In this document: positions 761 through 13,043 of the stretch, piece by piece | Layout: each line of letters starts with the position of its first letter | How positions within the stretch are numbered: position 1 is the stretch's first letter | Origin: Natronomonas sp. CBA1123 | GTDB taxonomy: Archaea > Halobacteriota > Halobacteria > Halobacteriales > Haloarculaceae | Direction of reading: 5' to 3' | Assembly (NCBI RefSeq): GCF_009741925.1 | Contig: NZ_WPCC01000035.1 | Span: forward strand, 1-33,735 | DNA: 33,735 nt | Position numbers and translations under genes: made by a program | Notes under the pieces: generated by a model | Databases searched by the model: none | The model's input: only the letters and a program-made list of their open reading frames with translations | Told to the model about the DNA's origin: nothing

Positions 761-2865
761 TGCTCTTCACCCCCGCCGCGTCGTCGGATGGCTTCGTAGG
801 CGTCGGCCGCACGCGAGCGGACGGCCGCCGACAGCGGGCGGTCGCCGTACTCCACTTCCCGGAACAGTCGCGTCAGTTCCGCGACCGGTCGGCGGGGGAA
901 CCCCTGTTCGACCGCGGCAGCGGCTATCTCCTCGGGAGTACTCGAGCGCCATCGGTTCGGAGCGACGAGTCGGGCAAAGCCACGCCACAGCGCGCGAATC
1001 GAGCGACCGTCGTCGGTCACGTGACCCGGCGTGGCCGAGGCACTCTCGCTGGCGGTGGGGCCGTCAGCGTTCGAATCGTCGACAGAACGGCGACGGAACG
1101 CGAGAGCGACGGCGACGACGAGCGTGACCGTCGCTCCGAGAACCGCACCGAGGCCGTCGGCGACACGATAGCCGATGGCCGTCGCTCCAACGCCCGCCAC
1201 CGCGAGGGCGATGACGATCGGGTTCCGAACGGTCCGTCGGATACCGCCGGCCGTCGAGCGGAGGACCTCGCGCAAACGCTCGAAGAGCTCGGATGCCGAC
1301 CGCGGGAACGACATGAGACGTGCTGCTGCGCTCTGCACGGTCGCCGCGACAGCCGACGCGAGGCGCCCGATGTCGTCGGCCAGACGGAGTACGTTGCGGT
1401 ACGCCGACTCGACGAGCGACGACCACAGGCGTCGGAGCAGGCTGGGAAGGCGGCGGACGTTCGTGGCCGCGCGAACGGCGGTGACGCCCAGCCAGCGGAG
1501 CGTCCCGCCAGCCGTGGTGGCACCCTTCGTAACCGACCGCCGCCACCGGTAGAGGGCGATACCGACGACGACGGCAATCACCGAAGCGAGCGCGACGTAT
1601 CGGCCGGTCGGTCCGTAGAGGCCGTCGGCGACGACGACTGCAGCGACGGCGGCGACACCGGCAGCGACGGGTGCCACGCCGCGGCGACCGCGGATGCGGT
1701 AGGCGGCTGCTGCGAGCAGCGCGACGACGAGGGCGAAGACGCCCGCCGGAACGGCGTAGTGGGACGCGACGCTGGTCGTCGCCCGCTGGTCCGCAGTCTC
1801 GACCGCTATCGTTGTGGTCGGATTCAACGGTACGTCGACCGTGCGTCGACCGTCGGCACCGGTCGTCCCGCGGCGTTCACCGCCGACGAAGACGGCGGCT
1901 TCGGTCGGTTCGTTCCCCAGTCGAGCGATGACGTCGCCCTCGGTTCCCGGGAGCGCGAGGAGGTTCTCCGAGCGGAGCGACGCCGACAGCAGGAGTACGT
2001 CGACCCGTTCGGCCCCCGCGAAGTCACCGCGGACGACGCGGACCTGGAATCGTTCCGTTCCGTCTTCGGGGACCGCGACGGTCGCGGTGCCGTCGGCGTC
2101 GGTTTCGCCAACTGATTCGCCGTCTACGAAGACCCCGGCGCCGCGGAAGGGTCGGCCGTCGATTGCCGACTCGACGGTGAGCGTGTCGCCTGGGTAGGGC
2201 CGCCCGCGAACGTCGACCGTGACGGTACCGTCGACCGGGTAGGTGACGCTCGCGTTCGGCGTAACAGTCCCCTGGGCCGCCGCAGCGACCGAGAGGGCCG
2301 GGAACCCTGCGGGCGACGACAGGTCCGGAGCGCCGCCTTGGCGGACGCTGTCGGTGCTCGCACGGCAGTCGGGGCGCCCCGGAACGTCGACCCGAATCGT
2401 GAGTTCGCGCTCGTAGGGGACCGACCCGGTCACCTCGCCGTCGGCGTTCGTGGTGCCGACGCGCTCGCCGTTGAACCACACGGGCGCGTCGGCGAGCGGC
2501 TCGCCCTCGTAGGTGACCCGCGCCGTGACCTCGCCGCCGGGTTCCGGCTGACGGTCGAGACCGATAGAACAGCGCGGCTCGGTGCGCGTGGGTTCGCCGT
2601 CGTTCTCCGGGAGGAACCACTCCAGGAGTTCGTACAAATCGAAGGTGCCGTCGGGGGCTTCTCCCGAACCGCCGGTACCGGGATTTTGGCCCGTCGAGTC
2701 GCTCTCGCCTGAGTCGTCCCCGGAGCCAGCGCCGCCCGACGGCGCGACGACGGGGACGAGGAAGGCGGCGACGACGAGTGCGACCGCAGCGAGGACGACG
2801 AGACCGACCTGTGCGGTGCTGGTGGTCTCGTCCGTGCTCTCCGGGGACGGCGCGTCGTCGTTCAT
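757..2865 (-). CDS. DUF4129 domain membrane protein with Ig-like ectodomain repeats
   Basis: This 702-residue protein starts at the ATG at 2865. One membrane segment (about 19-41) leads into a Gly/Ser/Asp linker and an extracellular region. That region holds at least three Ig-like or carboxypeptidase-regulatory-like repeats (about 98-165, 220-290, 300-358), each with a 'G-DG' turn. Three more segments follow (about 371-391, 396-415, 423-440), then an amphipathic Arg-rich cytosolic stretch, two further segments (549-566, 570-591) and a C-terminal soluble domain (about 625-695) typical of DUF4129. The stop overlaps the next gene's GTG, implying translational coupling. Such proteins sit with transglutaminase-like, DUF58 and MoxR proteins and are thought to act in envelope or surface-protein assembly; that role is inferred. 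An upstream in-frame start is possible, but the TATA-like element at 2926-2934 argues for 2865 with a short leader. Confidence 0.85.
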   Translation of the reverse strand: MNDDAPSPESTDETTSTAQVGLVVLAAVALVVAAFLVPVVAPSGGAGSGDDSGESDSTGQNPGTGGSGEAPDGTFDLYELLEWFLPENDGEPTRTEPRCSIGLDRQPEPGGEVTARVTYEGEPLADAPVWFNGERVGTTNADGEVTGSVPYERELTIRVDVPGRPDCRASTDSVRQGGAPDLSSPAGFPALSVAAAAQGTVTPNASVTYPVDGTVTVDVRGRPYPGDTLTVESAIDGRPFRGAGVFVDGESVGETDADGTATVAVPEDGTERFQVRVVRGDFAGAERVDVLLLSASLRSENLLALPGTEGDVIARLGNEPTEAAVFVGGERRGTTGADGRRTVDVPLNPTTTIAVETADQRATTSVASHYAVPAGVFALVVALLAAAAYRIRGRRGVAPVAAGVAAVAAVVVADGLYGPTGRYVALASVIAVVVGIALYRWRRSVTKGATTAGGTLRWLGVTAVRAATNVRRLPSLLRRLWSSLVESAYRNVLRLADDIGRLASAVAATVQSAAARLMSFPRSASELFERLREVLRSTAGGIRRTVRNPIVIALAVAGVGATAIGYRVADGLGAVLGATVTLVVAVALAFRRRSVDDSNADGPTASESASATPGHVTDDGRSIRALWRGFARLVAPNRWRSSTPEEIAAAAVEQGFPRRPVAELTRLFREVEYGDRPLSAAVRSRAADAYEAIRRRGGGEEQ

Positions 2866-2925
2866 CCGTACACCCTGTTTTCGCGTTCGGGGACCGCTTC
2901 GGTGTGTACGTTGTGCCGTTCTTCG

Positions 2926-2934
2926 GTATAAAGT
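2926..2934 (-). promoter_or_regulatory. TATA-like element of the DUF4129 operon
   Basis: On the minus strand an AT-rich box (CTTTATACC) lies about 65 bp before the ATG at 2865, predicting a start of transcription near 2900 and a leader of about 35 nt. It is the only good box in the 206-bp gap 2866-3071, which otherwise shows nothing recognisable. Confidence 0.45.
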
Positions 2935-3071
2935 GTCGGGCGGACTGAAAACGTGAGAGTAGCCGAGCAGGGCCGTCACGCGCTGTCAGGGCGGCGTGGG
3001 GAACAGACCTGACGGTAGCTAGGTGAAAACGGGAAAACGTCGAAGGGGTGGTTCGACGGTGTGTAGCCGAG

Positions 3072-3716
3072 TTACGCCGTGAGGTCGGTGTTCTCGGTCG
3101 CGTCCTCGACCTGTTCGGAGACGTCCTCTATCTGCTGTTGGACGGTGTCAGCCTGCTCTTCGAGTTGTTCCTGGATGCTGTCGAGTTGCTCGTCGAGTTG
3201 GTCCTGGAACTCCTCGGAGCGCTCGTCGAGCTGCTCCTGGAGGTCCTCGATGGACTCTTGGAGGTTTTCGAGGGCGTCGACGGTCTGGTCTTCGAGGTCT
3301 TCACTGGCTTCGAGCAATTGGGAGACCTGTTCGTCGAGGGTCTCGAGGAAGTCCTCGAGGAGTTCGTCGACAGACTCGTGGCCGTCGTCGAGGTTCTCCT
3401 CGATGGTGTCGAGGGCGTCGGACTGGTTGGCTTCGAGTTCGTCGAGCTGCTCGTCGAGGGTCTCACGAACGTCCGCCAGCACGTCCTGGTCGCCGGGGAC
3501 GGCCGATTCGATGGCGTCGAAGTAGGCGTCGACGCCCGTGCGGACGAGGTCGTTACTGCGCTCGGAGAACTGTCGGGTCGTGTCGAAGCTCTCGACGAGA
3601 CGCTCGTTGACGTTCTGCTGGAACTCGACGCCGGACTCGATGGCGTTCTGGGTCTGTTCGAGCGTGCTGCGCTGGAAACTGAACATCGTGCTGACCGCGG
3701 AGTCGTTTTGGCTCAT
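3072..3716 (-). CDS. Phasin-like acidic coiled-coil protein
   Basis: A 214-residue protein starting MSQNDSAV at 3716. The first 75 residues form a helical domain with aromatic and hydrophobic positions (FSFQRSTLEQTQ, then VEFQQNV). The region from about residue 80 to 205 is almost entirely a Glu/Asp/Gln/Leu coiled coil with degenerate 7- and 11-residue repeats of the type 'LDEQLDEL' and 'LQEQLDER'. No catalytic motif or membrane segment is present. The N-terminal pattern resembles polyhydroxyalkanoate granule-associated phasins and PhaE-like proteins, but no PHA synthase is nearby, so function is only suggested. Other options are a structural or chemoreceptor-like coiled coil. It has a strong leaderless promoter with an ordered repeat array upstream. 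The start is well supported by the TATA distance; the open frame upstream runs through the promoter and is not coding. Confidence 0.8.
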   Translation of the reverse strand: MSQNDSAVSTMFSFQRSTLEQTQNAIESGVEFQQNVNERLVESFDTTRQFSERSNDLVRTGVDAYFDAIESAVPGDQDVLADVRETLDEQLDELEANQSDALDTIEENLDDGHESVDELLEDFLETLDEQVSQLLEASEDLEDQTVDALENLQESIEDLQEQLDERSEEFQDQLDEQLDSIQEQLEEQADTVQQQIEDVSEQVEDATENTDLTA

Positions 3717-3740
3717 TGTAATTGAACTAACGCGTCCCGA

Positions 3741-3752
3741 CCATATAAACTT
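3741..3752 (-). promoter_or_regulatory. TATA box of the phasin-like gene
   Basis: Minus-strand AAGTTTATATGG is centred about 30 bp before the ATG at 3716, the spacing expected for a nearly leaderless haloarchaeal transcript. It is one of the best TATA/BRE matches in the window and implies strong expression. Confidence 0.75.
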
Positions 3753-3787
3753 TACCACCAAATACCACTCAATACCAAGAAATGGTA
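3752..3787. repeat. Phased TACCA repeats upstream of the phasin-like promoter
   Basis: Immediately upstream of the BRE/TATA, AATACCA occurs at 3761-3767 and 3771-3777, exactly 10 bp apart. A related TACCACC lies at 3753-3759, and an inverted TGGTA at 3783-3787 faces the TACCA at 3773-3777 across 5 nt. Repeats spaced by one helical turn on the upstream side of a TATA box look like an activator-binding array; the protein is unknown. Confidence 0.5.
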
Positions 3788-3866
3788 ATAATCGTCTATC
3801 TTCTGGCGGCGAGGGGTCACCGACAGGGGCCAGAGGCTTGTAGCGACGGCCCGATAGACGATACGG

Positions 3867-4904
3867 ATGAGCAACGCAGCATCACTTCAGGAACTGCTGT
3901 CGGGAGCCTCCGAACTCACCATCGTCTGTCACAACAACCCCGACCCGGACTGTCTCGCGAGCGCGCTGGCGTTGGGACGAATCGCCGCCAAGGTGGGCAT
4001 CGACGAACGTCGCATCGTCTACAGCGGCCGAATCAGCCACCAGCAGAACCGGGCGTTCGTCAATCTCCTCGAAATCGACCTCAAGCCGTTCGATGCTGCC
4101 GCCATCACCGAACGCCCCGAGGACTCGTTGCTCGCGTTCGTCGACCACGCGGTTCCGGGGGCGAACAACGAGGTGCCCGAGGGGACGCACGTCGACATCG
4201 TCATCGACCACCACCCGAACGACGACATCGACGCGACGTTCGTCGACCACCGCGAGGAACTCGGGGCGACGGCAACCATCCTCGCGGAGTACGTCGAAGA
4301 ACTCGACGTGGAACTCGACACGCCCCTCGCGACCGCGCTGCTGTTCGCGATACGGCGCGAGACGCTGGGCTTCCTCCGAGGGACGACACCCGCCGAGTAC
4401 GAAGCCGCCGCCAGACTGCACGACCACGCCGACCGCGGACTCCTCCGAGAACTCTCCTCGCCATCGGTCACCGGGGCGACGGTGGACGCCATCGCCGACG
4501 CCATCGACAACCGAACCGTCCGCGGCGCCGTCCTCATCACTCACGTCGGCCGGACGACCGAACGGGATGCCCTGCCGCAGGCCGCCGACTATCTCGCCAC
4601 GCTGGAGGGCGTCGAAACCGCCATCGTCTTCGGCATCATCGACGAGTCGATTCACATCAGCGCCCGTTCGACGGACGCACGAGTCAACATCGGTGACGTC
4701 CTCTCGACGACGTTCGATGAGGTCGGAAGCGCCGGCGGCCACCGAGAGATGGCCGGTGGGGAGATTCCGCTCGGCATCTTCGCCGGCTACACCAGCGACG
4801 ACACAACGCTCGTCGACATCGTCGCCGCCGTCGTCACCGACCGACTTCTCGATGGATTGGGGTTAGTCGAATCCGAGAGCCGAAAAGAGACAACAGAGGA
4901 GTGA
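3867..4904 (+). CDS. DHH/DHHA1 family phosphoesterase
   Basis: This 345-residue soluble protein has the full DHH architecture. The N-terminal metal motif HNNPDPD is at residues 22-28, an aspartate motif (FVDHA) at 91-95, and the family signature DHHPND at 114-119. The DHHA1 domain ends with a GGHREMAGG loop at about 290-298. The family includes NrnA-type oligoribonuclease/pAp phosphatases and cyclic-dinucleotide phosphodiesterases, using two Mn2+ ions to hydrolyse phosphodiester or phosphomonoester bonds. No TrkA-N or membrane domain is fused, unlike several haloarchaeal paralogues. The GGH motif suggests a nucleotide substrate, but the exact one cannot be assigned. It is divergent from the phasin-like gene across a 150-bp gap and appears monocistronic. 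Confidence 0.9.
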   Translation: MSNAASLQELLSGASELTIVCHNNPDPDCLASALALGRIAAKVGIDERRIVYSGRISHQQNRAFVNLLEIDLKPFDAAAITERPEDSLLAFVDHAVPGANNEVPEGTHVDIVIDHHPNDDIDATFVDHREELGATATILAEYVEELDVELDTPLATALLFAIRRETLGFLRGTTPAEYEAAARLHDHADRGLLRELSSPSVTGATVDAIADAIDNRTVRGAVLITHVGRTTERDALPQAADYLATLEGVETAIVFGIIDESIHISARSTDARVNIGDVLSTTFDEVGSAGGHREMAGGEIPLGIFAGYTSDDTTLVDIVAAVVTDRLLDGLGLVESESRKETTEE

Positions 4905-4931
4905 CCGACCGAAGGGTCGAAGCGCCCGCTG

Positions 4932-5267
4932 TTACCCCTGTGCAGTCAGCGAATCGAAGGCCGCGGGGTTCTCCCAGAGTTCGTGTAACGTCCCGGCCGC
5001 GAGAAAGCGCGTGGGTGCCGTCACCCACTCGCTCGTCACCGCCGCATCGGGTTCGGGAGCGTCGGTAGTGAACCACCACGCGACGTACCGACCGTCGTCG
5101 AGTCGCGCCGTCGGATACGACTCCCGGTCGACGATGATGTCGATGCGCGTGTTCGACTCGACGGGCGGCTGTTCGTCCGTGTCGGCGCCGACGCTGACCT
5201 CGACGGGAACGTGACCGTCGGTTCCCGATGTCGGACGCTCGCCGTCATCCGTATCACGAGGCGACAT
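4932..5267 (-). CDS. Uncharacterised acidic haloarchaeal protein
   Basis: A 111-residue protein if started at MSPRDTDDG (5267). An upstream in-frame ATG at 5294 would add nine residues, but a T-rich TATA-like stretch at about 5295-5305 sits about 30 bp before 5267, favouring the shorter form. The first 40 residues are a low-complexity acidic tail. Residues 45-111 form a compact domain with strands (RIDIIVDRESYPTA) and two tryptophan-rich stretches (YVAWWFTT and ELWENPAAF). No known catalytic motif is visible and I do not recognise the family. It lies tail to tail with the DHH gene (27 bp between stops), so the two are separate transcription units. Confidence 0.7.
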   Translation of the reverse strand: MSPRDTDDGERPTSGTDGHVPVEVSVGADTDEQPPVESNTRIDIIVDRESYPTARLDDGRYVAWWFTTDAPEPDAAVTSEWVTAPTRFLAAGTLHELWENPAAFDSLTAQG

Positions 5268-5401
5268 GCTGTGGAGTATCGGCTTGGACGGCATCGTACA
5301 AAAAGACCAGTCGGCCACGCGTCTGACGGGGCCGAAAGGACCGATGCGAACGCTGGCCAGCTGGACGAACAGCGTGGTGTCCAGACCCCGTTTCGCCCGT
5401 C

Positions 5402-5410
5402 CAATTTAAT
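5402..5410 (+). promoter_or_regulatory. TATA-like element of the PPOX-fold gene
   Basis: An AT-rich box (CAATTTAAT) centred about 28 bp before the ATG at 5434 fits a leaderless transcript. Confidence 0.6.
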
Positions 5411-5433
5411 GAGGACGGAGTCGTATACGACCC

Positions 5434-5916
5434 ATGACAATCGACGAGCTCGCCGACCACGGCGTCGAACGCATGGACGAGGAGACGATTCGGGAGTTCC
5501 TCGAAACGCAGGGCACTGGTGTCCTCGGCCTCCCGACCGAGCGACTGCCGTACATGGTGCCACTGTCCTACGGATTCGACGGCGAAACGAACCTCTATTT
5601 CACCTACGTCGTCGGGGACGTAAGCCAGAAGGCGCTGTTGACCGAGGAAACCGCCGCGGCCAGCTTCCTGGTGTACTCCGCCGATACCGAGTACATGTGG
5701 AGCAGCGTCAGCCTCGAAGGTATCATCAGTCGAGTCCCGGAACGGGAGTGGGATTCGCTCGGGGACGCTCTCGAACCACTCCAGCGCCCCGAGGCGCTGA
5801 ACGACGCGAGCGAATCGGAGGATGTCGCTGTGTACCGGTTCGAGATACAGACCCAGACGGGAATCAGACACGCCGGAACCCCACCGGAGATGGACCCGGA
5901 TTCCTCCGAGAACTGA
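5434..5916 (+). CDS. Pyridoxamine 5'-phosphate oxidase-fold, FMN-binding family protein
   Basis: A 160-residue protein of the split-barrel flavin-binding fold. After a short N-terminal helix (MDEETIREFLETQGTGVLGL) come the strands PYMVPLSYGFDGETNLYFTY, VGDVSQKALL and AAASFLVYSA, the usual order in which the FMN phosphate and isoalloxazine are bound. Haloarchaea carry many copies; most are probable flavin- or F420-dependent reductases of unknown substrate and not vitamin B6 enzymes. The acidic C-terminal tail is typical of halophilic proteins. It is monocistronic, with its own TATA element and a T-rich stretch 10 bp after the stop. Confidence 0.85.
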   Translation: MTIDELADHGVERMDEETIREFLETQGTGVLGLPTERLPYMVPLSYGFDGETNLYFTYVVGDVSQKALLTEETAAASFLVYSADTEYMWSSVSLEGIISRVPEREWDSLGDALEPLQRPEALNDASESEDVAVYRFEIQTQTGIRHAGTPPEMDPDSSEN

Positions 5917-5925
5917 GTCCAGCAC

Positions 5926-5939
5926 TCGTTTTTCGTTTG
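5926..5939 (+). terminator. T-rich probable terminator after the PPOX-fold gene
   Basis: A run (CTCGTTTTTCGTTT) begins about 10 bases after the stop at 5916. Archaeal polymerase terminates at such T-tracts without needing a hairpin. The rest of the gap to 6081 holds nothing I recognise. Confidence 0.4.
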
Positions 5940-6081
5940 ATTGAGTAGCGCGACACCGAACGCTGGGCCCGCTTCCTCTGCTCCCGCTACGAAGCGGACG
6001 AATCAACCGCGTACCGCCAGCAGGGGGAGGCACCACCCAACTCTCACGGGAGGGCGTGCCTTCGAGTTTCGATTGTTCGCC

Positions 6082-6936
6082 TTACCGGTAGTCCTCGAGC
6101 ACCGATGCCACGTAGTCCCGGCCGCCACGGTGCCAGTAGAGACCGACCACCCGGAGCGATTTCTCGACGCGATATGGGACGAGCCCGTGCTTCTCGCAGA
6201 ACACCTCCCAGAACGTTTGGACCGTCTCGCGATCCTCGCGATTCCCGATGTCGACATCGAGGTCGCCGAGGGCTTCCGTCACCGCAAACAGCGTGTGGTC
6301 GACTGGCAGCGAGACCCATCCCATCCCCGCCAGCGGCGCAACGCAGTCGTGCATCAGCCGCACCCAGAACGGCGTACTGACGGCGTCCGCGATGCCCGGC
6401 AAGTCGGCGCCGCGGACCAATCGCGCCGCATGGGGCGCGACGTAGTCGGCCTGGCGCAGGAGTCCCTCTGGGCCCCCATCGAAGCGCTCGTACAGCGTGA
6501 CGGCGGAGGTGAACCACCAGTGGGCGTCGTAGGCGTCCATGATATCGAGCCGATTGAAGAACGCCTCGAGTTCCTGTTCCCCTTCGGTGGCGACCAGCCG
6601 ATGTGGGTCGTACACCCACTGATGCTGTTGCCAGAGGGTCTTACAGACGCGCCAGAACCCCACCCGTCCGATCTGCGGTTTGGGACGGCCGGATGGATGG
6701 GCGTGAAACGGGACGAGCGACAGCGTCAGGAACCGAGCGGCCTCGGTTGTCGTGAGGTCCAACTCCTCGACGACCGTGTACTCCGGGAGCGAACGATTCG
6801 CGAAGAAGTCCGCTCCCGCCTGTTCGGCGTGTTGGAGTCGCGAGACGAGCGCCAGTAGTTCCGGCTCGTCTCGAATCATCGCTACCGTCCGCTCGAACCG
6901 AATCCCTGTAATGGTTTGGAGCCACCCTGCTCGCAT
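6082..6936 (-). CDS. Uncharacterised protein, possibly HhH-GPD-like
   Basis: A 284-residue protein from MRAGWLQ at 6936; a GTG at 6963 would add nine residues. The open frame extends to an ATG at 7095, but the TATA box (6998-7005) lies inside that extension, so it is not coding. The protein is rich in Trp, His and Phe (GFWRVCKTLWQQHQWVYDPH, DAYDAHWWFTSAVTLYERFD) and wholly helical in appearance, without membrane segments. Near the C-terminus, GADLPGIADAV followed some 35 residues later by VSLPVDHTLFAVTEALG recalls the hairpin and 'PVDxH' catalytic segment of HhH-GPD DNA glycosylases (AGOG group), but no conserved lysine can be fixed by eye, so I treat it as unknown. It has its own promoter, divergent from the block at 7113-8758. 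Confidence 0.75.
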   Translation of the reverse strand: MRAGWLQTITGIRFERTVAMIRDEPELLALVSRLQHAEQAGADFFANRSLPEYTVVEELDLTTTEAARFLTLSLVPFHAHPSGRPKPQIGRVGFWRVCKTLWQQHQWVYDPHRLVATEGEQELEAFFNRLDIMDAYDAHWWFTSAVTLYERFDGGPEGLLRQADYVAPHAARLVRGADLPGIADAVSTPFWVRLMHDCVAPLAGMGWVSLPVDHTLFAVTEALGDLDVDIGNREDRETVQTFWEVFCEKHGLVPYRVEKSLRVVGLYWHRGGRDYVASVLEDYR

Positions 6937-6997
6937 CTGCCGTTCGAGGGGAGGTTGTGACACTCGAACTCGAATTCGCTCCGTTCGATGGGCCGGG

Positions 6998-7005
6998 ATA
7001 TATAA
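6998..7005 (-). promoter_or_regulatory. TATA box for the gene at 6082-6936
   Basis: Minus-strand TTATATAT predicts a transcript start near 6975, giving a 12-nt leader to GTG 6963 or about 40 nt to ATG 6936. It decides against the longer open frame starting at 7095. Confidence 0.65.
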
Positions 7006-7086
7006 TGGACAGGAAGACGGAGATGGCCACCTTAGGGAACATGACGTTCGGGGGTCGCAGATGGAGCCCCCATCCACCGCAAATTT

Positions 7087-7134
7087 AATGCCCATAGAGC
7101 ATATATTAGAATGTGATTATGTTTAATGGGCATT
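7087..7134. repeat. Inverted repeat AATGCCCAT...ATGGGCATT around the 7113 promoter
   Basis: A perfect 9-bp inverted repeat has its left arm at 7087-7095 and right arm at 7126-7134, separated by a very AT-rich 30-bp spacer. That spacer contains a second TATA-like sequence (CATATATTAG) and the GTG start at 7113. Each arm is preceded by TTT (TTTAATG in both), so there is also a short direct repeat. It may be an operator, an RNA hairpin over the start codon, or a recombination scar. Confidence 0.5.
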
Positions 7135-7475
7135 TTGAGTTGGCAGGGACGAGTGTCGAATACGGGGATGTTGGGTTTCTCTTCCCCGTCGATGAACTTG
7201 ATGCGACTGTGATCAAGCACCGGGACGCCCAACTCGCACTCGCCGGTGTCGATGGATCCGACGTCATCGTCGTTGCCCCGACGAGCCTCGCAACGAGTTA
7301 CCTCCTCACCCAGCACACGCTCACCGTAATCCCAGTCGACGGTCTCTCTACTGCAGTCCGAGCACGAATCGCCGAGGAAATCGACGCATCCATCGAGGCG
7401 TTCGACCTCGTTCAAATCGGCAAGTGGAACAAAGACAGCCCGAACCACTCGCTCGCGGAATTCACGGGCGCCTGA
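7113..7475 (+). CDS. Uncharacterised small protein upstream of the ADP-ribosylglycohydrolase
   Basis: A 120-residue protein. GTG at 7113 is chosen because the AT-rich element at 7081-7089 is about 28 bp upstream; ATG at 7119 is the alternative. It begins FNGHFELAGTSVEYGDVGFLFP, has a hydrophobic beta-like centre (SDVIVVAPTSLATSYLLTQHTLTVIPVDG), then a helix (VRARIAEEIDASIEAF) and a Trp-containing tail. The alternating pattern looks like a small alpha/beta domain. It is less acidic and has less biased codons than neighbouring core genes, suggesting accessory origin. I recognise no family. It is followed at 52 bp by another small gene, in line with the ADP-ribosylglycohydrolase. Confidence 0.7.
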   Translation: MIMFNGHFELAGTSVEYGDVGFLFPVDELDATVIKHRDAQLALAGVDGSDVIVVAPTSLATSYLLTQHTLTVIPVDGLSTAVRARIAEEIDASIEAFDLVQIGKWNKDSPNHSLAEFTGA

Positions 7476-7527
7476 GCACTGACTCGTGAACTACGGACCG
7501 GACAAGCCGAGCAATGCGTGACTCCCG

Positions 7528-7806
7528 ATGACTGATACACTCGAACCCCTCGCCGAAGAGTACCCGGAGGCCACCCCGTACATCCAGCAAGCCGTCGACG
7601 AGCACGGCGAAGAGTGGGTCTTGGAACACTACTACGAGCAACTCCACCCACTCGGGAGAGTAATGACAATGCCCGAAAAAGACGAACTTCCGTTCTACGA
7701 TGCGGACGAACACGACACGATGACGAAAGAAGAACGAGTCGAGATGTACCAAGCGTTGGCAGCGTATCGAGAGAACCTCCGTACGGGGACGAAACCCGAC
7801 GAGTGA
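7528..7806 (+). CDS. Uncharacterised 92-residue acidic protein
   Basis: A small, strongly acidic, all-helical protein with many aromatic residues: an N-terminal part YPEATPYIQQAVDEHGEEWV, a middle segment LEHYYEQLHPLGRVMTMPEKDELPFYD, and a C-terminal helix KEERVEMYQALAAYREN. No metal-binding or catalytic motif is evident. It lies between an unknown gene (52-bp gap) and the ADP-ribosylglycohydrolase (43-bp gap) in the same direction. The hydrolase also has its own TATA-like box, so co-transcription is possible but not certain. It could be a partner or adaptor protein, but nothing in the sequence proves that. Confidence 0.7.
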   Translation: MTDTLEPLAEEYPEATPYIQQAVDEHGEEWVLEHYYEQLHPLGRVMTMPEKDELPFYDADEHDTMTKEERVEMYQALAAYRENLRTGTKPDE

Positions 7807-7816
7807 CTGCCACCGT

Positions 7817-7825
7817 ACATTTTTC
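7817..7825 (+). promoter_or_regulatory. TATA-like element before the ADP-ribosylglycohydrolase
   Basis: ACATTTTTC lies about 29 bp before the ATG at 7850, consistent with an independent leaderless transcript for the hydrolase. Confidence 0.45.
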
Positions 7826-7849
7826 TCAGCGGTAGTCGTTGACCCACGC

Positions 7850-8758
7850 ATGGCGCTGGATCAGGCTCGTGGGGTCCTACTGGGGCTTGCGTGTGGCGAT
7901 GCACTCGGACGGCCAGTCGAGTTCGCGACTGCCGCCGAGATTGCTGCTGAACACGGGCGACTCGACGAAATGGTCGGGAACAGAGCGTGGAACCAGCCCG
8001 CGGGGACGATTACCGACGACACCGAGCAGGCGCTGTGTATCGCGCGAAGCCTTGCCGAACAGCAGGCGTTCGAACCGACTGATATTGCAGCCCGCTTCGT
8101 CACGTGGTACGACAGCGACCCGTTCGACATCGGCCGGATGACGATGAAGTCACTAAGCCGCCTCAAACACGGTGCAGCGTGGGACGAGGCAGGCCAGCAG
8201 GTGTGGGAAAACAGCCCCGAAGGACAAAACGCCGGCAACGGGAGCGTGATGCGCTGTCCACCGCTCGCGATTCCGTACGCGACCGACAGCGACCGGCTCG
8301 TCGACATCAGCAAGCAGTCATCGCAAATTACACACGCTGACCCACGGTGCACCTACGGTTGTGCGGTGTTGAACCTCACGCTTGCAGGGGTTCTCGAAGA
8401 CGTCGACAGGCCGCTACGGGATGCCCTCGACTATCTCGGTGAGAGTGCGCCGGACGAACTCATTTCTGCTCTTCGACCACTTACCAGAGGTGATTCACCC
8501 GACACCCTGGAGACCTCCGGATACGTGATCCATTCACTGCAAACAGCACTCCACGATGGCTTGGGATGTCCAACCGCCGAGGAGGCGATTGTGACCGCCG
8601 TCAACCGTGGCGGGGACACTGATACAATCGGTGCGATTGCGGGGGCAGTCGCTGGTGCACGGTTCGGTGCGTCCGAACTACCTGAACGGTGGCTTTCTGC
8701 TATTGCCGATAGGAATGAACTCGATGAGTTAGCGACCCGACTCGTGGAGATAGCGTGA
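7850..8758 (+). CDS. ADP-ribosylglycohydrolase (DraG/ARH family)
   Basis: This 302-residue protein carries the family's metal-binding signatures. GLACGDALGRPVE (about 12-24) is followed by ITDDTEQ (about 54-60), where the TDDT residues bind one Mg2+, then by GNGSVMRCPPLA near 128-139 and by the C-terminal VNRGGDTDTIGAIAGA (about 250-265), whose D-x-D-T residues bind the second metal. Known members remove ADP-ribose from arginine, serine or other targets, or hydrolyse related ADP-ribose compounds. The substrate here is unknown. Length and motifs are complete. Neighbouring small genes in the same direction and the tRNA-Arg immediately downstream suggest an accessory block. It might reverse an ADP-ribosylation made elsewhere; no ADP-ribosyltransferase is visible in the window. 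Confidence 0.92.
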   Translation: MALDQARGVLLGLACGDALGRPVEFATAAEIAAEHGRLDEMVGNRAWNQPAGTITDDTEQALCIARSLAEQQAFEPTDIAARFVTWYDSDPFDIGRMTMKSLSRLKHGAAWDEAGQQVWENSPEGQNAGNGSVMRCPPLAIPYATDSDRLVDISKQSSQITHADPRCTYGCAVLNLTLAGVLEDVDRPLRDALDYLGESAPDELISALRPLTRGDSPDTLETSGYVIHSLQTALHDGLGCPTAEEAIVTAVNRGGDTDTIGAIAGAVAGARFGASELPERWLSAIADRNELDELATRLVEIA

Positions 8759-8779
8759 GGGCCGTTCTTGTATTCGAAA

Positions 8780-8796
8780 CGTTCCGAAACGGAACG
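8780..8796. repeat. Hairpin at the 3' trailer of tRNA-Arg
   Basis: CGTTCCG-AAA-CGGAACG is a perfect 7-bp stem with a 3-nt loop. It abuts the tRNA-Arg 3' end (overlapping 2 nt) and lies just beyond the ADP-ribosylglycohydrolase stop. It may help tRNA 3' processing or termination of either transcript. Confidence 0.5.
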
Positions 8797-8867
8797 AGCC
8801 CGACGGGAGTTGAACCCGCGACATCTTGGTCCGGAACCAAGCACTCTGTCCACTGAGCTACGGGTTC
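8795..8867 (-). tRNA. tRNA-Arg (anticodon CCG)
   Basis: A 73-nt cloverleaf on the minus strand. The 5' acceptor GAACCCG pairs with 3' CGGGCTC apart from an A3-C70 mismatch. The D stem is GCTC/GAGT, the anticodon stem CTTGG/CCAAG with loop TTCCGGA (anticodon CCG, reading CGG), and the T arm GCGGG-TTCAACT-CCCGT; the discriminator base is G. CCA is not encoded. No intron is present. A TATA-like AATAGTTACATC lies about 30-40 bp upstream (8893-8905). The mismatch in the acceptor stem is unusual and could be a natural variant or an error. Confidence 0.93.
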
Positions 8868-8940
8868 TTGCTCACGAGTAGCCGAAGCCGTGATGTAACT
8901 ATTGTGAACGGAACTACAGACGGCCAAAGAAAGTCGAGCG

Positions 8941-9525
8941 TTACGGCGATTCGCCGGTCTCGATTGAGAAGTCCGAGATGGGGTAGGCGACGCAGGTAAG
9001 CGTGTAGCCGTCGTTGAGCTCGGGGTCGCCGAGCATCTGGTTGGTGTGATGTTCGACGTAGTCCTCGCTGTTGCCGCCGTCGGTGATGTGGCCGGCACAG
9101 GAGATACACTGTCCCTCCCGGCAGGCGTAGGGGAGGTCCCAGCCCTCGTCTTCGCCCGCCTCGAGGACGGTCTCGTTCTCCTTGACCTCGATGGTGGTGC
9201 CTTCCTTCACGTACTCGATTTCGTACACTTCCGCTTCGTCGTCGGGGATGGCGGCCGGACTGTCGTCGCCCGCCTCGCCGTCTTCGAGTTCGCCCTCGCT
9301 TTCACCCTCGCCGGCAGCGACCGCCGCGGCGGCCGCACCGCCACCGCCGATACTGCGGTTGCCCGGTTCGGGGAACTCCGTCTCCGGGACCGCCGAGGCC
9401 CGCTGTTCGACGACCTCGTCGGAGATGTCCTCTCGGGGCGTCCATTCCGCGCCCTTCGAGAAGTGCAGGACGACCGCGGCGAGTGTCAGCACCGCCCCGC
9501 CAACGATACCCACTGTCGTGACCAT
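8941..9525 (-). CDS. Membrane-anchored [2Fe-2S] ferredoxin
   Basis: A 194-residue protein with an N-terminal membrane segment (about residues 3-21). A long acidic and Gly/Ala-rich linker follows (about 25-97; it contains a run of alanines and GEGESEGELEDGE). The C-terminal domain is a plant-type ferredoxin. The cluster ligands are C135, C140 and C143 (ACREGQCISC) and C178 (TLTCVAYP). It would pass single electrons at the inner face of the cytoplasmic membrane or, if the N-terminus is cytosolic, outside; topology is not settled by the sequence. Haloarchaea use [2Fe-2S] ferredoxins as main electron carriers, and this anchored form differs from the soluble major one. No clear redox partner adjoins it; the divergent neighbour is a GST-family reductase. 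Confidence 0.92.
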   Translation of the reverse strand: MVTTVGIVGGAVLTLAAVVLHFSKGAEWTPREDISDEVVEQRASAVPETEFPEPGNRSIGGGGAAAAAVAAGEGESEGELEDGEAGDDSPAAIPDDEAEVYEIEYVKEGTTIEVKENETVLEAGEDEGWDLPYACREGQCISCAGHITDGGNSEDYVEHHTNQMLGDPELNDGYTLTCVAYPISDFSIETGESP

Positions 9526-9579
9526 ATTCGATGTTAGTAAAGGCCCTTCAATAGCGTTGTGATTCGACCTTTTTTCCTC

Positions 9580-9596
9580 GGCGGCCTTCGGCCGCC
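9580..9596. repeat. GC-rich hairpin in the ferredoxin/GST intergenic region
   Basis: GGCGGCC-TTC-GGCCGCC is a perfect 7-bp stem with a 3-nt loop, preceded on the plus strand by a run of T. It lies in the 207-bp gap between two divergent genes, so a terminator role is unlikely; a regulatory or neutral role is possible. Nothing else in the gap is recognisable apart from the GST promoter. Confidence 0.45.
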
Positions 9597-9703
9597 TCCG
9601 CGTACGGCGACGGAACGACTCGAACTCCTGCCCAGTACCACGAAATTACGCGACGGCGATTCTACCGTCACCGATTCCGGCAACCCCCGTCGTCGCCCGG
9701 AAG

Positions 9704-9709
9704 CATATC
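9704..9709 (+). promoter_or_regulatory. TATA-like element of the GST-family gene
   Basis: CATATC lies about 27 bp before the ATG at 9733, supporting that start over the open frame that extends further upstream through the intergenic hairpin. Confidence 0.5.
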
Positions 9710-9732
9710 CCCCGAGAGCGCGGACGAGCGGT

Positions 9733-10695
9733 ATGGTCAATCAGTTCATCGACGGCGAGTGGGTAACCGAGTACGACCCCACCGACGACGACGGGTCGTT
9801 CCAGCGCCAGCCCACGACGTTCCGGGACCGCGTCGACGCCGAAGACGTCGAAGTGGGTCGCTATCACCTCTACGTGTCGTATGCCTGCCCGTGGGCGCAC
9901 CGAACGCTCGTCACTCGGAAACTGCTCGGGTTGGAGGACGCCATCTCCGTCGACGTGGTCGACCCCTACCGCGACGACGAGGGCTGGCAGTTCACCCCCG
10001 AGAAGGACGGCGCCACCGAGGACACCGTCAACGGCGCCGACTACCTCCGGGAGGTGTACATCGAGGCCGACCCCGACTACACCGGCCGTGTCACGGTGCC
10101 GGTGCTGTGGGACAAAAAGGAGGACACCATCGTCAACAACGAGTCCCGGGAGATTATGCGGAACCTGACGACGGCGTTCGCCGGGTTGGGCAACGGCGTC
10201 GACCTCGCACCCGCGGACCGTAGAGCGGACATCGACTCCGTCCTCGACGATATCTACGAGCCCATCAACAACGGTGTCTACCGAACCGGCTTCGCCGAGA
10301 CGCAGTCGGCCTACGACGAAGCCGTCACCGAACTGTTCGACGCCCTCGACCACTGGGATTCGGTGCTGGCCGACCAGCGGTATCTCGTCGGTGACCGTCT
10401 CACTGAGGCCGACATCGCGATGTACACCACGCTCGTCCGCTTCGACGAGGTATACCACACCCACTTCATGTGCAACCACGAACTCATTCGGGAGTACGAC
10501 AACCTCTGGCCCTACCTACGAGACCTGTATCAGACACCGGGATTCGGCGAGACGACCCACATGGACCACATCAAGGAACACTACTACACCACGCATCCGG
10601 ACGTGAGCCCAAAACGAATCGTGCCGATGGGACCGAACCCCGATTTCGAGGCCCCGCACGACCGCGACGCCCTTGCCGGCGAGCCTCCGGTCTGA
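9733..10695 (+). CDS. Glutathione S-transferase family, glutathionyl-hydroquinone reductase-like (ECM4/YqjG type)
   Basis: This 320-residue protein has the Xi-class architecture. The N-terminal thioredoxin-like domain contains the catalytic motif SYACPWAHRT with C52. The segments VPVLWDKKEDTIVNNES (cis-Pro and thiol-binding loop) and DSVLDDIYEPINNGVYRTGFA follow, then the helical C-terminal domain with GDRLTEADIAMYTTLVRFDEVYHTHF and a long C-terminal extension. Bacterial and yeast members reduce glutathionyl-(hydro)quinones. Haloarchaea generally make gamma-glutamylcysteine instead of glutathione, so that thiol is the likely cofactor (inference). Start chosen by promoter spacing and family length. 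It is divergent from the [2Fe-2S] ferredoxin gene and monocistronic. Confidence 0.92.
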   Translation: MVNQFIDGEWVTEYDPTDDDGSFQRQPTTFRDRVDAEDVEVGRYHLYVSYACPWAHRTLVTRKLLGLEDAISVDVVDPYRDDEGWQFTPEKDGATEDTVNGADYLREVYIEADPDYTGRVTVPVLWDKKEDTIVNNESREIMRNLTTAFAGLGNGVDLAPADRRADIDSVLDDIYEPINNGVYRTGFAETQSAYDEAVTELFDALDHWDSVLADQRYLVGDRLTEADIAMYTTLVRFDEVYHTHFMCNHELIREYDNLWPYLRDLYQTPGFGETTHMDHIKEHYYTTHPDVSPKRIVPMGPNPDFEAPHDRDALAGEPPV

Positions 10696-10744
10696 AATCG
10701 TCGAGCCCCGTTCTCCCGGGCGCAGACTCCGCCGGTGGCGTTAC

Positions 10745-10776
10745 GCATATATGTGTGCGTGGTATACCCACACATA
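10745..10776. promoter_or_regulatory. Promoter with palindromic operator for the 48-residue protein
   Basis: A TATA box (CATATAT, 10745-10751) lies about 31 bp before the ATG at 10780. Overlapping its end and covering the expected transcription start is an inverted repeat: TATGTGTG (10750-10757) and CACACATA (10769-10776), enclosing the perfect palindrome GGTATACC (10761-10768). This is a strong candidate repressor site. Confidence 0.6.
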
Positions 10777-10779
10777 GCC

Positions 10780-10926
10780 ATGCCGGATACGAAGCGAGGC
10801 CGCGAACAGAAGGGTCGGAAGAAGCGAGAGCAGCGCCGCGAATACGAAATCGAGCGGGAACTCGAGGCCCAAGAGCGCGAGCGGGACTTCGAAGAACTGT
10901 ACGAGGAACAGGAAATCGAGCTGTGA
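10780..10926 (+). CDS. Very small charged helical protein
   Basis: A 48-residue protein starting MPDTKRGREQ. Its first half is highly basic (KRGREQKGRKKREQRR) and its second half highly acidic (a helix ending YEEQEIEL). It is predicted to be one long charged helix without Cys or hydrophobic core. The ATG at 10780 is preferred because the TATA box and palindrome precede it; an upstream in-frame start would run through the promoter. I do not recognise the family. A basic-then-acidic design suggests binding to nucleic acid or another protein. The elaborate palindrome over its promoter suggests a real, tightly controlled gene. Confidence 0.65.
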   Translation: MPDTKRGREQKGRKKREQRREYEIERELEAQERERDFEELYEEQEIEL

Positions 10927-11046
10927 GCGGTTGGTGACGGCTGATTCTGATTATTACTCGAGGTGGGGAGCCACCGCTACGGTCGGACGGTGACTCGCGA
11001 CGGAACCCATATTCGACTCGAATCCCTAGCGACGGGCGACGACTCG

Positions 11047-11073
11047 CTTCTGCCGTAAGAGAAACGGCAGAAG
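11047..11073. promoter_or_regulatory. Perfect inverted-repeat operator enclosing a TATA-like element
   Basis: CTTCTGCCGT (11047-11056) and ACGGCAGAAG (11064-11073) form a perfect 10-bp inverted repeat. The 7-nt spacer AAGAGAA is part of a TATA-like stretch (TAAGAGA, 11056-11062) centred 28 bp before the ATG at 11087. A dimeric regulator bound here would cover the TATA box and repress. The winged-helix protein encoded at 11389 is the obvious candidate (inference). Confidence 0.7.
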
Positions 11074-11086
11074 CCCACCCCAAACC

Positions 11087-11392
11087 ATGGCTTACACACT
11101 GATACTCGGCGTTCTGCTGGCGTTCGGGACGGTGAGTGCTGCCGGCATCCTCGGCGTCGGCCTCGCCGCGTTCATCCAGCGACGCTCGTGGCCGTATCTG
11201 CTGGTCGCACTCGCCCTCGCGGCGCTTTTCGTCCGCGCAATGACGGGTGTGGGATACATGACCGGCGGACTCTCGCTGGAAGCACACCACCTCTTGGAAC
11301 ACGGACTCGACATCGTGATGGCCGCCCTCGTCATCGCCGCCGTGCTGTCGGCACACACCCTCGGTGACCGCATCGGAGGTGAGATACGGTGA
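11087..11392 (+). CDS. Three-helix membrane protein with a histidine cluster (DUF7471-like)
   Basis: A 101-residue integral membrane protein with hydrophobic segments at about 5-30, 36-56 and 70-92. Between segments two and three it has LSLEAHHLLEHGLDI, with H67, H68 and H72 next to the membrane boundary, and another His at 90. This histidine arrangement could bind a metal ion or heme. Its stop overlaps the GTG of the next gene (winged-helix regulator), so the two are translationally coupled. A P19-type metal-binding lipoprotein follows. The family name DUF7471 is a recollection. Function is unknown; a sensor or transporter accessory role in metal homeostasis is inferred from context only. 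Confidence 0.85.
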   Translation: MAYTLILGVLLAFGTVSAAGILGVGLAAFIQRRSWPYLLVALALAALFVRAMTGVGYMTGGLSLEAHHLLEHGLDIVMAALVIAAVLSAHTLGDRIGGEIR

Positions 11393-11889
11393 GCGGCACC
11401 CGCGACAGCATCGAACGACACATCCGGGAGGACCCGGGCGTCCACTTCAACGAGTTGGTCCGGGCGCTGGACCTCGCACCCGGGCAGGTCCAGTATCACG
11501 TCCGAAAACTCCGGCGCCGCAGCGCCGTCGTCACCGACGAACTGTTCGGTCGGACCCACTACTACCCGCCGGAGTACGACGAGTGGGAGCGAGCGGCACT
11601 GGCGCTGTTGCGCCGGGAGACGAGCGCCGAAATCGTCGCGACCCTGCTCGACGAGGGACCGAGTCGACCCGTCGACATCGCCGAATCGGTCGGCATCGCC
11701 CGCAGCACGCTCTCATGGCACACCGAGCGACTCGTCGAAGCCGGCTTACTCGAGAAGCGCTACGACGGCCACCAACTCGCCGTCGTCGACGCCGACCGGA
11801 CCGCCGAGTTGCTGGACACCGCCGACCCGCGGCTCCCCGAGCGCCTCGTCGACCGATTTACGCGACTCGTCGACGCGCTGTTGGAATAA
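11389..11889 (+). CDS. Double winged-helix transcriptional regulator
   Basis: A 166-residue protein starting with GTG at 11389, overlapping the upstream stop. It has two winged-helix domains. The first (about 3-60) reads SIERHIREDPGVHFNELVRALDLAPGQVQYHVRKL, with the recognition helix at GQVQYHVRKL. The second (about 65-140) reads ALALLRRETSAEIVATLL, then RPVDIAESVGIARSTLSWHTERL, with the recognition helix at ARSTLSWHTERL. Tandem wHTH proteins of this ArsR/MarR-like type are common haloarchaeal regulators; no effector-binding cysteines are present. Being coupled to the membrane protein suggests that protein transmits a signal to it. The inverted repeat at 11047-11073 is its likely target. Confidence 0.9.
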   Translation: MSGTRDSIERHIREDPGVHFNELVRALDLAPGQVQYHVRKLRRRSAVVTDELFGRTHYYPPEYDEWERAALALLRRETSAEIVATLLDEGPSRPVDIAESVGIARSTLSWHTERLVEAGLLEKRYDGHQLAVVDADRTAELLDTADPRLPERLVDRFTRLVDALLE

Positions 11890-11929
11890 CGGACGACGAC
11901 AGTCCGCATGATTCGACGGTCGGACCAGA

Positions 11930-11938
11930 ATCCAAATA
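11930..11938 (+). promoter_or_regulatory. TATA-like element of the P19-like lipoprotein gene
   Basis: CAAATACGG is about 30 bp before the ATG at 11964, so this gene probably has its own leaderless transcript and is not simply read from the upstream pair. Confidence 0.45.
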
Positions 11939-11963
11939 CGGGTCCCGAACCGACGCATACGTA

Positions 11964-13043
11964 ATGCAACGCCGCGACTACGTTCGTGCGTGCCTCGGTG
12001 CCGGTGCCGTCGGAGTGGCCGGCTGTTCGGACCTCATTCGGACGCGGGAAGTCACCTCCACGCCGCCGATTCTCGAGAACCGACCCGACCGCGTGTACTA
12101 CCCGACGCACGTCGACGGGATGGCGATGGTCGATATGGCCAAAACCGACGACGGCGAGTACGCCTTCGCGCTGATGTACACCTACCCGCACCGCTTCTGG
12201 CGGGTCGATGCGACGACGACCCAACCCGAGGAGGCCAACCTCCACGACGTCGACGGGAGCAACGACATCCACCTGATGGCGGTCGTCTGGGACCCCCAGA
12301 CCGGCCGTGTCCTCCCGGATACGGGCATGAGCGTCGACATCGCCCGCGACGGCGAATCGCTGGACGAACAGGTCATCTACCCGATGCTGTCGGCGCGGAT
12401 GGGCTTTCACTACGGCGCGAACTTCAAACTCGACGGCGAGGGTACCTACGACGTGACGATGTCGGTCGGCGGCACGAACGTCCGTCGGACCGGCGAGTAC
12501 GTGGGCCGCTTCAGCGACCCCGGCAGCGTCACGGTTCCCTTCGAGTTCACCACCGAGAAGCGCGACGAACTCGGCATCGAGCGGGCTGGCGACCGGGCCG
12601 GCGAGGCCGCCGTCCCGTCGGTCATGGAGATGAACCACCCTCTCGGCGTCGCACCCACGCCGGAGGAACTCCCCGGAACCCACCACGGAACCGCCGAAAG
12701 CGACGAGGCGAAACTCGTCGTCGTCTCGCTCTCGGAGCGCCCCGACGGCGTCGACGGCGAGGGCGACTATCTCGCGGTGTCGGCCCGAACGCCGTACAAC
12801 GAACTCGTGTTGCCGGGAATGGCGCTTGACGCGACCGTCGAACGCGACGGCGAGACCGTCTTCGAGGGGACACTCGAGCGCACCTTCGACGACAGCCTCA
12901 ATTACCACTACGGTACGGCCGTCGACGACGTGCAGGCGGGCGACGAACTCACGCTCGAAGTCGTCACGCACCCACAGGTGGCCCGCCACGAAGGGTACGA
13001 GACGGCGTTCCTTCAGATGCCGAACGCCGAGTTGACGCTGTAG
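11964..13043 (+). CDS. Tat lipoprotein with P19/Tp34-like metal-binding domains (DUF7350-like)
   Basis: A 359-residue protein with a twin-arginine signal (MQRRDYVRACLGAGAVG) and lipobox VAGC, so C21 would be lipidated and the protein anchored outside the membrane. Residues about 40-195 resemble the P19/Tp34 periplasmic iron/copper-binding family: VDMAKTDDGEYAFALMYTYPHRFW, an NDIHLMAVVWDP strand and the hallmark MGFHYGANFKLDGEGTYDV. Residues about 230-359 look like a second, weaker copy of the fold (ETRV-type strands, then LNYHYGTAVDD). Family members help high-affinity iron uptake with an FTR1-type permease; none is visible here. Neighbours are a His-containing membrane protein and a regulator, suggesting metal homeostasis. 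DUF7350 is a recollection. Confidence 0.82.
   Translation: MQRRDYVRACLGAGAVGVAGCSDLIRTREVTSTPPILENRPDRVYYPTHVDGMAMVDMAKTDDGEYAFALMYTYPHRFWRVDATTTQPEEANLHDVDGSNDIHLMAVVWDPQTGRVLPDTGMSVDIARDGESLDEQVIYPMLSARMGFHYGANFKLDGEGTYDVTMSVGGTNVRRTGEYVGRFSDPGSVTVPFEFTTEKRDELGIERAGDRAGEAAVPSVMEMNHPLGVAPTPEELPGTHHGTAESDEAKLVVVSLSERPDGVDGEGDYLAVSARTPYNELVLPGMALDATVERDGETVFEGTLERTFDDSLNYHYGTAVDDVQAGDELTLEVVTHPQVARHEGYETAFLQMPNAELTL

Follow-up and report, generated by a model that had tools for sequence, protein, structure and literature searches.

A haloarchaeal gene cassette beside tRNA-Arg in Natronomonas sp. CBA1123 as the possible remainder of a mobile CBS-HEPN defence module without its effector

We analysed a 33,735-nucleotide stretch of the haloarchaeon Natronomonas sp. 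CBA1123 (contig NZ_WPCC01000035.1; hereafter the window), which is one whole contig of a 97% complete draft genome (3.45 Mb, 89 contigs). It carries a cassette of two small genes, here called P120 and P92, and a gene for an ADP-ribosylglycohydrolase (ARH), all on the plus strand and next to tRNA-Arg(CCG). In other haloarchaea these genes recur with a divergently transcribed gene for a protein that joins CBS and HEPN domains (CBS-HEPN). The association of P120 with P92/ARH and with CBS-HEPN is conserved, and P120 and CBS-HEPN distances correlate. The explanation we favour, to which we give about an even chance, is that a mobile CBS-HEPN defence module of haloarchaea is present here without its effector, the three window genes being what is left of it and P120 its likely antitoxin-like component. 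A literature search covering titles, abstract beginnings and passages found no published description of a module composed of CBS-HEPN, P120, P92 and ARH.

Results

The order at 7119-8758 is P120 (7119..7475; 118 amino acids from the ATG at 7119, the start at which relatives align, or 120 from a GTG at 7113), P92 (7528..7806; 92 amino acids) and ARH (7850..8758; 302 amino acids), flanked by a divergent gene, P284, and by tRNA-Arg(CCG). A preliminary description of the stretch had reported two small open reading frames and a complete DraG-like hydrolase running in one direction beside this tRNA gene, and coordinates, Pfam matches and motifs confirm it. The atypical composition it ascribed to the small genes was also recovered: GC content at third codon positions is 0.67 in P120, 0.68 in P92 and 0.64 in ARH, against 0.80-0.86 in five other genes measured, and the gap at 6937-7118 has a GC content of 0.52, against 0.653 for the window. 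Ratios of nonsynonymous to synonymous substitution rates (dN/dS) relative to Natronomonas gomsonensis are 0.34 for P120, 0.25 for P92 and 0.24-0.32 for pieces of ARH. Between cassettes they are 0.20-0.39 for P120 (four comparisons), 0.09-0.12 for ARH (four) and 0.06 for P92 (two comparisons, a third being saturated at synonymous sites and giving no ratio). By this measure P120, P92 and ARH are coding and under purifying selection; the small genes are also conserved with the hydrolase, and these were the two points on which the preliminary description had let its proposal depend.

Across genomes, P120 was found at 82 loci after removal of four superseded or duplicate loci, and at 78 once those at least 97% identical were collapsed. 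P92 lies directly downstream in 40 of the 78 (43 of 82 before collapsing), and a co-directional ARH is found downstream in 27 (29 of 82 before collapsing), accompanied by P92 in 25 of these. CBS-HEPN stands divergently within 450 bp of P120 in 42 of the 78 (45 of 82 before collapsing), the gap measuring 79-123 bp in 41 of those 45. In four loci of the 78 it occurs only farther off, at 2-13 kb, and in three a second, different CBS protein, with an RNxxxH stretch read by eye, is encoded upstream of P120 on the same strand; within the stretch read, 29 loci have no CBS partner. Adjacent CBS-HEPN, P92 and ARH are all missing from 13 of the 78. Among the 40 non-redundant loci with both P120 and P92, 15 have no ARH within 2.5 kb downstream; when only loci with a single full-length P120 are counted, 25 complete ARHs lie downstream. 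An Mrr-type restriction gene directly follows P120 in 10 loci, never alongside P92.

Evolutionary distances of P120 and CBS-HEPN are tightly correlated (Mantel r = 0.945, n = 41), with values of 0.63 for P120/ARH (n = 24), 0.56 for P120/P92 (n = 37) and 0.53 for P92/ARH. Close CBS-HEPN homologues (E < 1e-74, 392 genomes) have P120 on the same contig in 33 of 33 cases, 30 within 1 kb and the remaining three at 2.5-8.4 kb. That close CBS-HEPN is tied to P120, that P120 is often solitary and that the distances correlate so tightly would all suit an effector with a dedicated inhibitor. The asymmetry is the one expected of a toxin-antitoxin pair: 29 of 78 P120 loci lack a CBS partner in the stretch read, and none of the 33 close CBS-HEPN genes lacks P120. 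Genes intervene between the two in genomes G102, G174 and G212 (read in the first two), and 12.6 kb separate them in the second cassette of N. gomsonensis. At loci L228 (4866-12250) and L230 (3587-15475) we observed the divergent pair split by 8-12.6 kb, with a P-type ATPase-like gene and others, many of them for membrane proteins, lying between an intact P120 and an intact CBS-HEPN.

CBS-HEPN proteins comprise about 260-310 amino acids, with a CBS-like N-terminus that scored above the CBS cut-off in two of three members scanned. The C-terminal domain carries RNxxAH in all 37 aligned copies (alignment A6, 37 of 41 C-termini) and in 43 of 43 full-length ones. Single-sequence Pfam scans of the C-termini returned, all with weak scores, HEPN_RiboL-PSP in 29 of 37 (best E 7e-4), HEPN_Swt1 in 16 and Abi_2, a member of the HEPN superfamily, in 8; HEPN_MAE_28990 appeared in 5 of 37, the same count as the unrelated NETI. 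With PADLOC, 13 of 14 proteins matched PDC-M34B and 5 a Csx1/Csm6 CARF-HEPN model. A search with the Pfam HEPN family PF18735 matched 1 of 116 relatives, none over the cut-off, and none in 14 control genomes. Weaker CBS-HEPN matches are a mix of fragments beside P120 and P120-free relatives; for the distant relatives eight places were fetched, and the gene caller recovered a CBS-HEPN relative in six (L277, L278, L280, L281, L283 and L284). Three of these (L277, L278 and L284) form a separate subfamily with an MFGxQExVTVRELMT start and an RNxxAHYGN motif and without P120; no recognised defence genes were among the few neighbours read, and the protein might be a housekeeping regulator there. The genome searches scored part of the first-look candidates (at most 11 per genome for P120 and 6 for CBS-HEPN), so that absences in them are not exhaustive; in the window genome, where all candidates were scored, no CBS-HEPN match at E <= 1e-8 was present in the 97% complete draft.

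The window ARH is, by its sequence, a complete DraG-family hydrolase. It matches Pfam PF03747 (ADP_ribosyl_GH) over the whole length of the family at residues 8-280, with 254.8 bits against a cut-off of 26.2, and stays below the NCBIfam equivalog cut-offs for both DraG (188.3 against 337.05 bits) and Tri1 (142.5 against 490 bits). Its TDDT and GGDTDT stretches are intact, D56, D57, D256, T257, D258 and T259 are invariant (12 of 12), and the GGDTDT position aligns with GGDADT of DraG; TDD near the N-terminus and GGDTDT near the C-terminus are presumably the metal-site motif stretches of the ARH/DraG family. Homologues occur in 53 of 146 related genomes. A tree built from 54 ARHs places those of the cassette in one clade of 27, as read from the printed tree. 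P92 is in view for 24 of these and P120 alone for two; the remaining one is that of G102, where P92 lies beyond an inserted gene. An automatic test for the smallest clade with all P92-linked ARHs gave 48 tips, because an ARH of another lineage (L200) sits upstream of a P120-P92 pair. Outside the cassette clade, 22 of 27 ARHs have neither P92 nor P120 near, most of them viewed with 1.5-kb flanks only. Six non-cassette ARHs, all outside that clade, do lie within 5 kb of P120 (L200, L111, L056, L215, L222 and L226), and those of L111 and L215 adjoin CBS-HEPN; chance would give about 0.1 such cases at roughly 0.5 ARH per genome, and some of the surplus may stem from clustering in defence islands.

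The window genome encodes a further ARH, 72% identical to the first (L069, G000:C13, 7692-11460); close to it are a P92 fragment and an AspBHI-type HNH gene, and P120 is missing. Excerpts of two published studies mention haloarchaeal genes of the wider ARH family: a transposase interrupted a predicted ADP-ribosylglycohydrolase in a laboratory strain of Halorubrum lacusprofundi (PMC10544981), and a draG gene of Haloferax alexandrinus was lowered under silver stress (PMC10694973). Insertions between P92 and ARH were also seen, namely a probable ribbon-helix-helix/PIN pair recognised by eye in L184 (5616-6409) and an amidohydrolase, by Pfam, in L228 (2458-3924), with a protein very similar by eye in L180 (5854-7320).

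Directly after the cassette ARH, a HEAT-repeat gene is found in 6 loci, and the ends overlap by 1-4 bases in L046, L047, L048 and L062, where both ends were called. The N-terminus of its product has a DxDxT stretch, seen by eye; Pfam returned HEAT-type or similar helical-repeat families and weak others, and no phosphatase. In some other genomes the cassettes have defence-type neighbours, among them CARF, CARF-PIN, HNH nucleases, AspBHI-type HNH, Mrr and AbiEi, and a Cmr3-like match near a cassette in another genome is weak (E 0.0012).

Among 146 related genomes, P120 was detected in 17 and P92 in 16. Of 392 genomes sampled from the order, 58 have P120 homologues; a draw across the class gave 49 of 272, all from the same order, the representation of other orders in that draw not being visible. 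Plasmid records carry P120 in nine cases and P92 in seven; no relatives of either were found in viral contigs. Of 27 P92 matches at E <= 1e-36, 21 adjoin P120 (places compared by eye; ten weaker matches, mostly fragments, excluded). P120 had no match at E <= 1 in Pfam, NCBIfam, PHROGs or PADLOC, and no nucleotidyltransferase family match. For P92 the same collections gave weak matches only, the best being HBS1_N at E 0.014, under the Pfam cut-off, and there is a weak match to PDB entry 1rtw (E = 0.027). No transferase family was matched by P120, P92 or P284 in any of the four. The alignment of P120 (A5, 71 of 74 extracted proteins) has no invariant charged residue, E114 alone being nearly invariant, and a PDB profile search with these 71 rows gave a single chance-level match (E = 1.4). 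AlphaFold2 models of P120 reached a mean predicted local distance difference test score of 68.9 with 19 rows and 80.1 with 63 (A7). Neither model matched a PDB structure at E <= 0.001 or reached Z >= 2 in second looks, and the second had no match among viral proteins.

The cassette lies in a variable segment (5930..8771) that has a conserved pyridoxamine-oxidase-like gene on one side and tRNA-Arg(CCG) (8795..8867, minus strand) on the other, the 3' end of the tRNA gene pointing toward the segment. Relative G009, which belongs to the same genus, aligns to the window at 90-94% over 1-5929 and 8772-12000, and the segment between does not align; about 1.65 kb of other DNA occupies the site there, with one open reading frame of 419 amino acids (L266 4883-6142, minus strand) in place of P284 and the cassette. 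Because G009 matches both flanks but carries other DNA between them, the spot at the tRNA-Arg 3' end is a swap site. The 419-residue frame has no Pfam or PADLOC match, a PD-(D/E)XK-like stretch being visible by eye only, and another frame near P120 in L224 (6822-7127) resembles its N-terminus, again by eye only. Within 5900-9000 the tRNA 3' end is not convincingly repeated (best 15 of 18 nucleotides at 6170-6187), and no integrase was identified in a Pfam scan of nine window proteins. The nearest named relative of the locus, N. gomsonensis YCN60, has P284, P120 and P92 intact at the same site, together with an ARH that is interrupted by an internal stop and lacks roughly the last 58%.

P284 (6082..6936, minus strand; 284 amino acids from the ATG, a longer start being possible) is judged to lie outside the module. 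It is present in 7 of 60 genomes searched, its own included, and in G001 and G009 it occurs without P120; it is present at 2 of 95 loci scanned, those of the window and N. gomsonensis. P284 has moved between sites, since it lies far from tRNA-Arg(CCG) in G009 and G001. Three further genomes of the genus encode close relatives (83-98%), the relatives seen elsewhere are weaker (26-34%), and the window protein has no family match beyond one at E 0.86. Elsewhere in the window, at 16917-17018, ARAGORN called an unusually long tRNA-Asp of 102 nucleotides within a predicted open reading frame, which may have an intron or be a false call.

Ahead of the P120 ATG, a conserved promoter-like stretch (7075..7118, plus strand) contains CACCGCAAATTTAATG and, farther on, GCATATAT, and probably serves a leaderless P120 transcript. 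Among 74 upstream regions compared by eye, those of the window's subfamily keep TTAATG and GCATAT at a constant distance from the ATG. A search that favoured position -22 found an (A/C/G)ATA element in 61 regions, 53 of which have it at -22, and none in 13 more. The preliminary description had also pointed to a 9-bp inverted repeat in this area. It exists (AATGCCCAT at 7087-7095 and ATGGGCATT at 7126-7134), but it is not conserved, its right arm falls within the P120 coding sequence, and we rejected it as an operator; it is best read as chance. Of 74 P120 upstream regions, 9 contain exact inverted repeats of at least 8, a small excess over the mean of 5.15 (maximum 7) obtained from 20 mononucleotide shuffles. 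A start-codon palindrome, GAGCATA/TATGCTC, was likewise discarded, as it showed no covariation (p = 0.52 over 53 loci, p = 0.95 over 34 distinct pairs).

Discussion

In its full form the proposed module would read CBS-HEPN <- -> P120 -> P92 -> ARH, sometimes followed by the HEAT-repeat protein. The CBS domains may sense an adenine-nucleotide-type signal that is made or disturbed by infection, upon which the HEPN domain would be switched on, cut RNA and stop the cell; in healthy cells P120 would hold CBS-HEPN off as an antitoxin does. ARH, perhaps helped by P92, would strip ADP-ribose from one of the module's own or the cell's proteins, so that a viral ADP-ribosylation is undone or the switch is reset. 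In the window, where no effector is encoded, P120 would be left as an antitoxin without its toxin, and ARH as an ADP-ribosylhydrolase standing on its own. The RNase activity of HEPN, the antitoxin role of P120, the ligand, the target and the parts played by P92 and ARH are all inferred. The preliminary description had suggested an ADP-ribose signalling, detoxification or defence unit; the divergent CBS-HEPN partner and the restriction, CARF and other defence-type neighbours elsewhere speak for defence, and the ADP-ribose signalling is not proven.

Several observations weigh against this explanation. The role of P120 comes from gene order only, as the protein has no recognisable fold. HEPN scores shown for CBS-HEPN members fall under the curated Pfam cut-offs, and a CBS-HEPN profile found no HEPN structure in the PDB. 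None of the eight places fetched for distant CBS-HEPN relatives contains P120, and because these relatives stand without it, CBS-HEPN in general is not dependent on P120. ARH is broken in both N. gomsonensis cassettes, in which P120 and P92 are intact, so that it is dispensable there, and 6 of the 27 P92 matches at E <= 1e-36 are away from P120. No recognised defence gene adjoins the window cassette, by Pfam on nine window proteins and PADLOC on four. Defence genes also cluster in islands, which alone raises linkage of the kind seen in other genomes, and joint inheritance or transfer can produce distance correlations without functional coupling.

A different account, which we regard as possible if rather unlikely, is that P92 and ARH act as a counter-ADP-ribosylation unit against viral transferases, independently of CBS-HEPN, with P120 as a passenger or substrate-binding helper. 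ARH is an intact hydrolase by motif, and an ADP-ribosyltransferase is reported for haloviruses HVTV-1 and HCTV-5 in excerpts of PMC8651126. Such a role is predicted for bacterial ARG-centred conflict systems without a linked transferase in section 3.8 of PMC9503650. Seventeen of 27 non-redundant loci with P120 and ARH, the window among them, lack an adjacent CBS-HEPN, but three of the 17 have it 2-13 kb off and three have the second CBS protein; moreover, P120 tracks CBS-HEPN more closely than ARH, and the nine window proteins scanned include no match to Nudix, WYL or rhodanese-phosphatase, hallmarks in the part of PMC9503650 consulted. That ARH is a metabolic or housekeeping DraG-like detoxification enzyme, its two linked genes functionally unrelated and without a defence role, appears doubtful. 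The frequency of homologues in the group (53 of 146 genomes) and the 22 of 27 ARHs outside the cassette clade with neither small gene near, mostly within 1.5-kb flanks, would suit it; the cassette ARHs, however, form their own clade with P92/P120, and cassette genes are found on plasmids, are atypical in composition and, in some genomes, are surrounded by defence genes.

The cassette could also be what remains of an island in decay, without any present function in the strain, as the lack of a detectable CBS-HEPN gene, the second cassette-like place reduced to ARH and a P92 fragment (L069) and the truncated same-site ARH of N. gomsonensis, with its internal stop, would suggest. We consider this improbable, as all the window frames are intact and under purifying selection (dN/dS 0.24-0.34 against N. 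gomsonensis). The preliminary description had further proposed one small protein as a toxin or target; in a DraT-DraG-like pair it would be the toxin or ADP-ribosylated target and ARH its antidote. Although the genes are adjacent and co-directional, and distances correlate for P120/ARH (r = 0.63) and P92/ARH (r = 0.53), we give this proposal very little credence: neither P120 nor P92 bears an ADP-ribosyltransferase signature, P120 has no invariant charged residue, the effector candidate is CBS-HEPN, and both small genes are intact where ARH is broken or not found (within 2.5 kb downstream, in 15 of 40 non-redundant loci with P120 and P92), which is unexpected for a toxin and antidote.

Within the CBS-HEPN module that we favour, a bolder version can be formulated, which we think unlikely as it stands. 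P120 would be the first of a new antitoxin-like family restraining a CBS-HEPN RNase, and P92-ARH an ADP-ribose switch: a virus or host enzyme would ADP-ribosylate P120 or CBS-HEPN, the RNase would be freed, and ARH would reset the system. If this were true, haloarchaea would possess a defence system whose HEPN effector is gated by ADP-ribosylation that can be reversed. The more general explanation, if right, would offer a first handle on why an ADP-ribosylhydrolase accompanies the P120 gene set, and the tailed viruses that encode an ADP-ribosyltransferase and infect haloarchaea would allow a direct test.

Among known systems, HEPN-MNT and other HEPN toxin-antitoxin pairs likewise have a small partner gene next to that of a HEPN RNase. 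The haloarchaeal module differs in that P120 has no nucleotidyltransferase family match and in its divergent arrangement rather than one operon. ARH matches DraG and Tri1 (PDB 2woc and 6dre) over nearly its full length with the same motif stretches; unlike them, it falls under both equivalog cut-offs, with no nitrogenase or toxin partner seen, and in contrast to DraT-DraG the window set has no linked ADP-ribosyltransferase match in P120, P92 or P284. The ARG-centred systems of Iyer et al. 2022 (PMC9503650) share the ARH superfamily, the lack of a linked transferase (for the window, among the proteins scanned) and variable accessory nucleases. They are described from bacteria, where phosphatases, chaperones and Nudix/WYL regulators accompany them, and the text of that paper uses neither of the terms haloarchaea and euryarchaea.

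The HEPN-CBS fusions for which Anantharaman et al. 2013 predicted a coupling of nucleotide sensing to RNA stability have the same domain pairing, and the passages of PMC3710099 that we consulted name no P120, P92 or ARH partners. Closest is DS-11, a single-protein CBS-HEPN described in excerpts of the DefensePredictor study as an experimentally validated anti-phage system, whose defence requires a predicted CBS ligand contact and HEPN residues (PMC13092281). In our proposal the haloarchaeal CBS-HEPN would depend on both parts in a similar way. Compared by domain names only, DS-11 and the haloarchaeal protein both fuse CBS domains to a HEPN domain; DS-11 is described there as one protein, whereas the haloarchaeal form is accompanied by P120, P92 and ARH, and the window has no CBS-HEPN gene. 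If our explanation is right, this recurrent haloarchaeal gene set would be a multi-gene relative of a recently validated CBS-HEPN defence type, equipped with a candidate dedicated antitoxin.

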